A DNA stretch of 64,000 nucleotides, from contig LDXJ01000061.1 in the NCBI GenBank assembly GCA_001029295.1, forward strand, positions 62,001 to 126,000. The letters are read 5' to 3'. Positions within the stretch are counted from its first letter, which is position 1. The number at the start of each line of letters is the position of its first letter. Origin of the DNA: Peptococcaceae bacterium CEB3 (GTDB lineage Bacteria; Bacillota; Desulfitobacteriia; Desulfitobacteriales; Desulfitobacteriaceae). The position numbers and the translations under genes are program-made. Shown here piece after piece: positions 16,756 to 20,564 of this stretch. Below the pieces are notes generated by a model, which was not told where the DNA came from, did no database searches, and was given only the letters and a program-made list of their open reading frames with translations.

Positions 16756-16847
16756 TCACTGGGGAATTCTTCCTTCGGATAAACCGACCCGGTATTGGCT
16801 TCCGGCCACTCCTATCGGTTAAACTATTGAAAAAATTCCCGGAACAT

Positions 16848-16936
16848 CGCTTCCCTACGCTGGTACTAACCAGATCAGGTTCAAAGGGATAAGAGAACTC
16901 TCTTTCTCAGCCCCTTACGGGGCACCCCCAGCAAAG
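16848..16936 (-). promoter_or_regulatory. TPP riboswitch (THI element)
   Basis: Read on the minus strand it has all conserved blocks in order: GGGGGTGCC, GGCTGAGA, CCCTTTGAACCTGATC and TAGTACCAGCGTAGGGAAG. This is the thiamine pyrophosphate aptamer. It lies between the promoter at 16959-16987 and thiS, so excess TPP should shut off the whole thiSGH(FE)C operon. Confidence 0.97.
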
Positions 16937-16958
16937 TTGCAATTGTATGATTGGCTTT

Positions 16959-16987: not shown

Positions 16988-17068
16988 GGGGGCCTTGTTT
17001 AATCCGCAATTTTTCTCAACCCCAGTCATATCTTAAGGCAAACAAATAAATTGGAGGAGGAGGTCTGT

Positions 17069-18043
17069 TTGAATTCCAGCCATACCGCTCTCCGTTTGCG
17101 CGAAAAACGTCTTTGGGTCCTCGGCTACGCCGCCGAGGACTTCCCCGGCGACACCCGCGCGGCGGACAGCATTCGCTCACAAGGCTCTCACCTCGACGCT
17201 TGTGCGGATTTTGCCTTCTTCGTCCGGGACGACGCCTATTTGGCGGGATCGGTCAATGCGCCGATTCTCGACGCCGCCACAGCCCGGAACGTCGGCTATC
17301 TGGTTCTCTTCCATAATTTTGACGGTCAGCGTTTTGATCCGCGACCCCTCCATTCCATCCTCTCTTCCCCGTCCTTGCAGCGTACTTTCATCCGGAACGT
17401 TCTTGACTCCCTGCCGGCCGGATCAGCCGGGATCCAGCTCGATTTCGAAGAAGTCCAAGCGGGTGACCGCCTGCCTTATGTTCACCTTCTGGAATCTTTG
17501 CAAGCCGTCTTGCACGAAAAAGGCCTCCTGTTGACAGCCACCCTGCCGGCCAAGCGTTCTGAGGGAGAGGCCCCCGGCTATGATTTCGCCAACATCGGCC
17601 GAATATGTGATGTCATCACCCTGATGACCTATGACGAGCACTTCGCGGGTGGGGAGCCGGGCCCGATTGCCGGCCTCTCCTGGATGATTCAAGCCTTGGA
17701 CTATGCCGTCAATCTCATACCCAAGCACAAAATTTTGGTCGGAATTCCGGTTTACGGCTATGATTGGTCCGACGCACCCACCCGTATGCTGCCCATGCGG
17801 GACGTTCCCGCGTTGGTCGCCGAGACCCGGGCTCGCATTCTTTGGTCTGACCCAGCCGTCGAACCCTATTTTTATTATTGGCGCGGACGTGACAGACATA
17901 CCGTCTGGTTCGAGAACGAGCTGTCCGCCAAAATCCGCCTCGGCTTCGTCAAATCATACCACCTGCGCGGGATCGCCATCTGGAGGTTGGGCTATGAAAG
18001 CAAACGTTTCTGGGCGGCGGTGAGCACAAAACTGGGGCACTGA
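17069..18043 (+). CDS. Glycoside hydrolase family 18 protein, YaaH/YdhD-like
   Basis: About 324 residues. TTG 17069 is placed 5 bases after GGAGGAGGAGG; the TTG at 17051 lies inside that purine run. GH18 barrel features: LDFEE (catalytic glutamate of the DxE motif), VITLMTYDEH, KILVGIPVYGYDW and the C-terminal RGIAIWRLGYES. Most like spore-cortex or germination GH18 proteins but without LysM repeats and without a signal peptide. It may act in the mother cell or on cytosolic glycans. Monocistronic; convergent with the selenoprotein gene. Confidence 0.85.
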   Translation: MNSSHTALRLREKRLWVLGYAAEDFPGDTRAADSIRSQGSHLDACADFAFFVRDDAYLAGSVNAPILDAATARNVGYLVLFHNFDGQRFDPRPLHSILSSPSLQRTFIRNVLDSLPAGSAGIQLDFEEVQAGDRLPYVHLLESLQAVLHEKGLLLTATLPAKRSEGEAPGYDFANIGRICDVITLMTYDEHFAGGEPGPIAGLSWMIQALDYAVNLIPKHKILVGIPVYGYDWSDAPTRMLPMRDVPALVAETRARILWSDPAVEPYFYYWRGRDRHTVWFENELSAKIRLGFVKSYHLRGIAIWRLGYESKRFWAAVSTKLGH

Positions 18044-18226: not shown

Positions 18227-18892
18227 CTATTCCACCGCTTGCATCAGATTCCGGACGAACACCGCCTCCGGAACCGCGCCTTCAAACTGAACCGTTTCAT
18301 TGATCACGGATTTGGGAACACCGAAAACGTTATACTGTTGGGAAAGCTCGCCAAACTCCGTCGCCTCGATACATTCCGCCTTGATGCGCGGATTGGCCAG
18401 GGCCAATTGATGAGCCGTGCGCACGGCACGGGGGCAATGGGGTCAAGTGGGGGTGACGAAAACTTTAATCGTCACATCTTTCTGCACAGCCTCAACCTGT
18501 TTGACAATATCTGGGGCTAACTTTGTTTGTCCCGCCGACAAGTCGGCCAAATCCTCGATCAGGGTACCGAACTCATAGCCGGAGGGTATACCGTAAAACC
18601 GCACCCCAGAATCCGCGTCAGCCTTTTCCAGGATCAAAGCGGGCACTCTTTGCACATCATAACGCTTCAGCTCCGCATCCTCTTTACCGGGAACTTTGTG
18701 CACCGCCAGCTTGATCTTGTCGCTGAGCTCCGAAACCTCCTCAGCAATCTGCTGCGTCTCCGTGCAGTACATACAGTCGTCCGGCTGTCCGCCGTCTTGA
18801 ACAAAGAGACGCATGGTGACGGGTTCCACCAAATTCTGGTCAAAAAAGCCCTTAATGGCCGTGGCATCCTTTTTCGATAATAATTTCGCCAA
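18227..18892 (-). CDS. Thioredoxin-fold protein disulfide oxidoreductase (PDO-like) with in-frame UGA: probable selenoprotein
   Basis: Two tandem thioredoxin/glutaredoxin-like halves, 221 residues if UGA is read as selenocysteine. TTG 18892 follows AAGGAGG by 8 bases. First active site is C40-MY-C43 with cis-proline loop RVPAL. The second reads VTPT-UGA-PHC: the UGA (18445-18443) sits exactly where the first redox cysteine of a CPHC motif belongs, and the frame goes on through GVPKSVIN (second cis-proline loop) to a normal stop at 18227. A GCCGT-GCGC-ACGGC hairpin with a G-initial loop starts 16 bases after UGA, as in bacterial SECIS elements. Likely a dithiol/selenol reductase or peroxide/persulfide-handling enzyme in the cytosol. 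A nonsense mutation is the alternative. Confidence 0.85.
18417..18430 (-). promoter_or_regulatory. SECIS-like hairpin
   Basis: GCCGTGCGCACGGC, a perfect 14-base palindrome forming a 5-bp stem with GCGC loop. The loop starts 21 bases after the UGA codon at 18445-18443, inside the accepted bacterial window, with G at the first loop position. Confidence 0.6.
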
Positions 18893-19008
18893 AATTCCTA
18901 CCTCCTTCTCCGAGCAGGTTGACACTCCTCAAACCCCAAGGCAAGGCGTGTTCAAAGCCCCTTAAACTCTGCCTTAGTCTCTCCCGGGCCGGCAAAATTT
19001 ATGTTTTT

Positions 19009-19222: not shown

Positions 19223-19513
19223 ATGTTCGAACTGAATAACATCACGGAAACGGTGGTTCGTGAAGCGCTTCAAGACTATCTTCGCCAAGCCAAGCCACCC
19301 TGCAGCTGCGACCGCTGCCAGGCCGATATTTTGGCCCTGGCTCTCAACCGCCTGCCCCCGCGCTATGCCGTCACCCTGCGGGGGGAAATCCTCAGCAAGT
19401 GGGAGTCCAGAGCTTTGCCAAGCCATGCCCGCATCGTGTCGGAACTCGTCCGGGCCGCCGAACAGGTTGCGGCCGCACCTTCCCACCCTCTGCCGACAGA
19501 GAATCCCGGTTGA
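19223..19513 (+). CDS. ComFB-family protein
   Basis: 96 residues, ATG after GGGGG. Family signature VVREALQDYL...CSCDRCQADILALALNRLPPRYAVT, including a CxCxxC zinc site. ComFB was named from the late competence operon of B. subtilis; cyanobacterial members bind c-di-GMP/c-di-AMP. A receptor role for the GGDEF product elsewhere in the window is possible but only inferred. Ends 3 bases before the stop of the convergent gene. Confidence 0.9.
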   Translation: MFELNNITETVVREALQDYLRQAKPPCSCDRCQADILALALNRLPPRYAVTLRGEILSKWESRALPSHARIVSELVRAAEQVAAAPSHPLPTENPG

Positions 19514-19860: not shown

Positions 19861-19889
19861 ACATATCTCTCCCCAAGGAAGTGTCAGAA

Positions 19890-20564
19890 ATGATTACAAG
19901 CCGTGAGCTTCTGCGTTTCGATCTGTTTTCTTTTCTCAGCCAGGACGATGTCTCCCCTTTCCTGCCGCATTTGCAGGAAAGGCGCTGCCGCAAAGGCCAG
20001 ATTCTTTTCGTTGAAGGTGAAATCGGTTCTACTGTTTATTTTGTCCTCCGCGGCCAGATTAAATTAAGCAAAATGAGCCCCGACGGGGAAGAACAAATCC
20101 TCGATTGGTGCGGGCCATATGACAGCTTTGCCGAAACCCTGCTCTTGGAGAACGGCTCATATCCGGCAACCGCCGAAGTGGTACGGGACGGCACCCTGCT
20201 CATTTTAAACAATAACATCATGCCGGCCCTGCTGGAGAAGCATCCCCGTCTCGCCACGGCCTTGGTTCGCACGCTCAGCAAGCGCCTGCGCCTGGCTCAG
20301 GAATTTATCCGGATCCTGACCAGTAAGTCAACGGCCGGAACTTTGGCTTCTCTCCTCTTGCGCCTGGCGCGTCCGGCCCCGTCCCCGGAGGCGCCCATCT
20401 ATATCCCACCCGGTCTGACCCACCGGGATCTGGCCGGCATGATTGGTACATCGCGGGAAGTGGTTAACCGTTGCCTCAGCGCCTGGAAAAAGTCCGGAAT
20501 CATCCGTCCGTCCGCTGACAGCCTTGAAATACTGAAGCCCCAAGAACTTGCGGACTGGCCTTAG
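19890..20564 (+). CDS. Crp/Fnr-family transcriptional regulator
   Basis: 224 residues; ATG 19890 lies 10 bases after AAGGA (a GTG three codons earlier is too close to it). N-terminal cyclic-nucleotide-type beta barrel (RRCRKGQILFVEGEIGSTVYFVLRGQIKLSK), dimerisation helix, and a winged helix-turn-helix LTHRDLAGMIGTSREVVNRCLSAWKKSGII. No cysteine cluster of the Fnr type is present, so it is not an iron-sulfur oxygen sensor; effector unknown. Possibly regulates itself and the divergent 19516-19860 gene. Confidence 0.9.
   Translation: MITSRELLRFDLFSFLSQDDVSPFLPHLQERRCRKGQILFVEGEIGSTVYFVLRGQIKLSKMSPDGEEQILDWCGPYDSFAETLLLENGSYPATAEVVRDGTLLILNNNIMPALLEKHPRLATALVRTLSKRLRLAQEFIRILTSKSTAGTLASLLLRLARPAPSPEAPIYIPPGLTHRDLAGMIGTSREVVNRCLSAWKKSGIIRPSADSLEILKPQELADWP

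Follow-up and report, generated by a model that had tools for sequence, protein, structure and literature searches.

The question raised by this locus is whether a gene that carries a stop codon in the middle of its frame is broken, or whether the stop is read as an amino acid. The window, by which we mean the whole stretch of 64,000 nucleotides from Peptococcaceae bacterium CEB3 that was analysed, holds on its minus strand a frame leading from a TTG start to a TAG stop with a single internal stop, a TGA at codon 150 of 221 (Table 1). The initial annotation had read this gene as a two-domain protein disulfide oxidoreductase (PDO) with cysteine in the active site of domain 1 and selenocysteine (Sec) in that of domain 2, rather than as a pseudogene, and the translation bears out the otherwise uninterrupted frame on which this reading was built. 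The UGA lies in the protein context F-V-T-P-T-U-P-H-C-P, which is a CxxC motif with its first cysteine replaced. From the comparative sequence evidence set out below, we regard it as very probable indeed that the product is a two-domain PDO in which UGA150 is decoded as selenocysteine via SelB and Sec-tRNA, directed by a downstream hairpin.

Table 1. Positions in the window of the PDO gene, its sequence elements and its neighbours
Feature	Position	Strand	Remarks
PDO selenoprotein gene (predicted)	18227..18892	-	221 aa; TTG start, TAG stop; Sec at residue 150
UGA codon, first position of domain-2 UxxC motif (U150-P-H-C153), probably read as selenocysteine	18443..18445	-	
Domain-1 CxxC motif, C40-M-Y-C43	18764..18775	-	ordinary Cys codons
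Shine-Dalgarno-like GGAGG	18901..18905	-	8 nt 5' of TTG start; direct reading
Bacterial SECIS-like hairpin	18415..18431	-	6-bp stem CCGUGC/GCACGG (18431-18426 paired with 18420-18415); loop CGUGC with G18424-U18423
ComFB-like gene	19223-19513		PDO neighbour
CRP-like regulator gene	19881-20564		PDO neighbour
GH18 gene	17051-18043		PDO neighbour

The family assignment is clear from a profile search, in which the product matches the NCBIfam model TIGR02187, "PDO_seleno_TRX", with 256.4 bits (E 1.6e-76) against a curated cut-off of 185 bits, and does so over its full length (residues 7-219 against positions 2-209 of the 209 in the model). The Pyrococcus PDO structures 1J08 and 1A8L likewise match residues 4-220, with E about 1e-48. 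Two thioredoxin (Trx) folds are present in the product, each with an active site and a proline at the cis-Pro place (C40xxC43 with P84, and U150xxC153 with P193); both prolines, noted at the outset as marks of intact cis-proline loops, are unchanged across nine aligned homologues. With nine homologues as input, AlphaFold gives a model of mean pLDDT 91.7 that superposes in Foldseek on 1A8L, the PDO of P. furiosus, with a TM score of 0.94. Sequence and predicted fold together confirm the product as a two-domain, tandem thioredoxin-fold PDO, with Cys in the first domain and very probably Sec in the second as had been proposed.

The UGA is shared by relatives. A search of 101 genomes, the organism's own and 100 related ones, returned eight full-length loci at 69-100% identity, its own included, and all eight have exactly one in-frame TGA; more distant loci also have UGA at the domain-2 site. 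Among the relatives is Acididesulfobacillus acetoxydans, in whose genus the window organism is placed and whose protein is 97% identical to the window protein. A GTDB-wide scan confirmed 394 loci; the best 80, a sample skewed to the nearest kin, were combined with added loci to give 79 scored rows (four loci without the searched motif were left unscored). The codon at the site is TGA in 17 of these, TGC in 37 and TGT in 25, and no other codon occurs, so that homologues lacking Cys or Sec here, to which the initial annotation had looked as evidence against its reading, are absent from the scored set. Identity to the window protein is 93% after the UGA and 75% before it for locus L038, 86% and 62% for L042, and 97% and 98% for L037. 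Conservation downstream of the UGA roughly equals or exceeds that upstream, a pattern unlike the decay that follows a nonsense mutation.

The same comparison bears on the possibility that the UGA serves mainly as a regulatory stop yielding a product of 149 residues with a single Trx domain, and that the Sec form is either minor or conditional on selenium. In bacteria, termination competes with the insertion of Sec, and in the predicted model domain 1 appears as a complete Trx fold that ends before the UGA, so such a product is conceivable; nevertheless, the post-UGA part, C153 and P193 included, is at least as conserved as the pre-UGA part, and no homologue consisting of domain 1 alone stood out in the homologue searches. 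We regard this explanation as highly unlikely.

For decoding as selenocysteine in bacteria, the bSECIS model allows a range of 16-37 nt from the UGA. The hairpin described in the initial annotation, GCCGU-GCGC-ACGGC at 16-29 nt after the UGA, does exist as sequence, but comparison with relatives favours another register. The shifted register CCGUGC-CGUGC-GCACGG is the one that is both chosen by RNA folding and covarying. In nine distinct sequences, selected for gap-free alignment, all 54 cells of the shifted register are paired and one stem pair shows compensatory change (U-A to C-G and G-C); in the GCCGU/ACGGC register pairing holds in 40 of 45 cells and double changes are absent, with four of the nine sequences breaking one pair and one sequence breaking another. 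Three of the six pairs in the shifted register are invariant, and the covariation comes from the remaining three, two with single and one with double changes; none of 500 shuffles matches the observed hairpin in cells paired, in covariation score or in doubly changed cells. The stem starts 11 nt after the UGA and the GU-containing loop 17 nt after it, with the GU at loop positions 2 and 3 (CGUGC) unchanged in all nine sequences; the arrangement of a bacterial SECIS, a hairpin just 3' of the UGA whose small apical loop carries G or GU at its start, is thus found here.

Selection on this stretch can also be read from synonymous sites. Over the hairpin (codons 154-160), 105 of 105 synonymous-codon comparisons among six divergent sequences are identical, as against 48% gene-wide, and the freeze stops at codon 161. 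As judged from these alignments, selection at the RNA level is shown to act on the hairpin. The folding energy of the 56-nt stretch by itself does not stand out from that of its shuffles (z -0.08), and the evidence for the hairpin is for this reason one of comparison and not of stability.

The genome also encodes the means to read such an element, with all of selA, selB, selC and selD present, as the initial annotation had anticipated for a Sec-using organism. The genes selB (631 aa) and selC, a tRNA-Sec with a UCA anticodon (66.8 bits), lie on one contig (C63), and selA and selD on another (C60). selD (locus L035) carries a UGA of its own, in SG-U-GCK, which from its sequence makes it a second probable selenoprotein of this genome; because of this UGA, decoding of UGA as Sec is very probably not confined to the PDO gene. 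SelB is full length in all eight related genomes with the UGA gene. A SelA match is absent in Paradesulfitobacterium ferrireducens (G009, 90% complete; locus L008/L041) despite its UGA gene and selB, and since selB is present there, the missing selA is probably an assembly gap; in another genome (G011), SelA is a fragment, and both of these assemblies are incomplete.

It might be argued that a tRNA-Cys bearing the anticodon UCA reads the UGA as cysteine, or that the codon is read as tryptophan: opal-anticodon variants of tRNA-Cys occur in some bacteria, and Cys is what most homologues have at the site. Among 48 tRNA hits plus selC, however, the only UCA-anticodon tRNA found is tRNA-Sec, tRNA-Cys having GCA and tRNA-Trp CCA, in a genome that is 98.5% complete and for which a few expected tRNAs are absent from the list, so that a missed gene is possible. 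A conserved, covarying SECIS-like hairpin would moreover be purposeless without SelB, and we consider decoding as Cys or Trp extremely improbable. A sequencing error or a nonsense mutation in an ordinary CPHC PDO gene, for which only the general expectation that internal stops often mean decay can be cited, has a vanishingly small chance of being correct given a UGA retained by all eight close loci from several genera as well as by other lineages, purifying selection at least as strong downstream of the UGA as upstream, and synonymous sites frozen over the hairpin.

With the UGA of the window gene most probably encoding selenocysteine, the history of the site in the family can be considered. 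On a tree of 81 homologues, counted without regard to direction, Sec and Cys must have replaced each other at least six times, and well-supported branches force at least three of these changes. The window's own clade of eight is entirely Sec, and it is sister, with 98/94 support, to the protein of Carboxydothermus islandicus, likewise Sec. Two Tepidibacillus loci differ, one (L059) having Sec with the hairpin and the other (L050) Cys without the hairpin sequence, and a recent change from Sec to Cys within this genus is likely. The hairpin registers differ among the lineages of Carboxydothermus, L074 and L079. We give an even chance to the view that Cys and Sec have switched several times with SECIS registers that differ slightly between lineages, in which case the family might offer a natural series in which to follow the gain and loss of a SECIS at one codon. 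A genome of the same phylum (G089) has three PDO-like UGA genes (L010, L018 and L021), in two of which a long low-complexity linker joins the domains, and Alicyclobacillus ferrooxydans (L069), of Bacillales type, carries the putative Sec form together with a matching hairpin.

As to the physiological role and the electron donor of the PDO selenoprotein, we infer the following scheme. Once SelB and Sec-tRNA had inserted selenocysteine at the UGA, as the hairpin would direct, Sec150-Cys153 would form a fast thiol/selenol-disulfide centre that may exchange electrons with C40-C43 of domain 1. Recharging would probably fall to one of the two thioredoxin reductases in the genome, encoded at 414542-415435 of C64 and at 16798-17697 of C21, and the output could be the reduction of protein disulfides or the feeding of a peroxidase. 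In nine distant loci, of which seven are scored as Cys and two are unscored, the PDO gene has in its vicinity a thioredoxin-reductase-like gene, identified from its own sequence and not by family search; this arrangement fits a pairing of thioredoxin reductase and PDO in the window organism but supports it only loosely. Around the PDO gene itself, the ComFB, CRP-like regulator and GH18 genes recur in six related loci, and no functional hint is evident from these neighbours. Further along the window, a TPP riboswitch (16835-16939, minus strand, 84 bits) is found 5' of a series of thiamine-biosynthesis-like genes, also on the minus strand (about 16461-11787).

Tandem Trx folds of this kind are well known. 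The PDOs of Pyrococcus furiosus and P. horikoshii (1A8L, 1J08) and of Aquifex (2AYT, 2YWM) have the same two-domain fold (TM 0.90-0.94, 34-40% identity) but Cys in domain 2, where the window product is predicted to have Sec. The N-terminal domain of AhpF (1HYU, 1ZYN, 5H29) also has the tandem fold (TM about 0.76-0.86), although there the pair is fused to a flavoprotein reductase whereas the window pair stands alone; a plasmid search gave only AhpF-like and distant thioredoxin-family matches.

Sec-type PDOs were described in Carboxydothermus hydrogenoformans and Symbiobacterium thermophilum (PMC1794560), the family was also included in two further papers (PMC9312934, PMC13188914), and it was later reported in Asgard archaea (PMC11227280). 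A literature search on "PDO_seleno_TRX" gave no result. The window gene has the family model and the UxxC motif in common with the reference for this PDO or Grx-like selenoprotein family, ABB15282.1 of C. hydrogenoformans, but belongs to another lineage, that of Acididesulfobacillus and relatives. Its product and the C. islandicus protein share about 47% identity. The hairpin of C. islandicus is different (GGCUGC-AGUU-GCAGCC), with a loop G that lies 3 nt farther from the UGA than that of the window gene. Well supported as it is, the window gene adds a new member to a predicted selenoprotein family established since 2006 and is not a new kind.

The case is sound but fairly ordinary, and it leaves the picture of selenoprotein biology unchanged. 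For annotation the consequence is direct: a standard gene caller stops at the UGA, and the resulting fragment, some 150-160 residues long, lacks the second active site, whereas the correct annotation would be a full-length selenoprotein. For the family, the known range of PDO selenoproteins extends to Acididesulfobacillus and relatives, and a clean comparative SECIS is gained.
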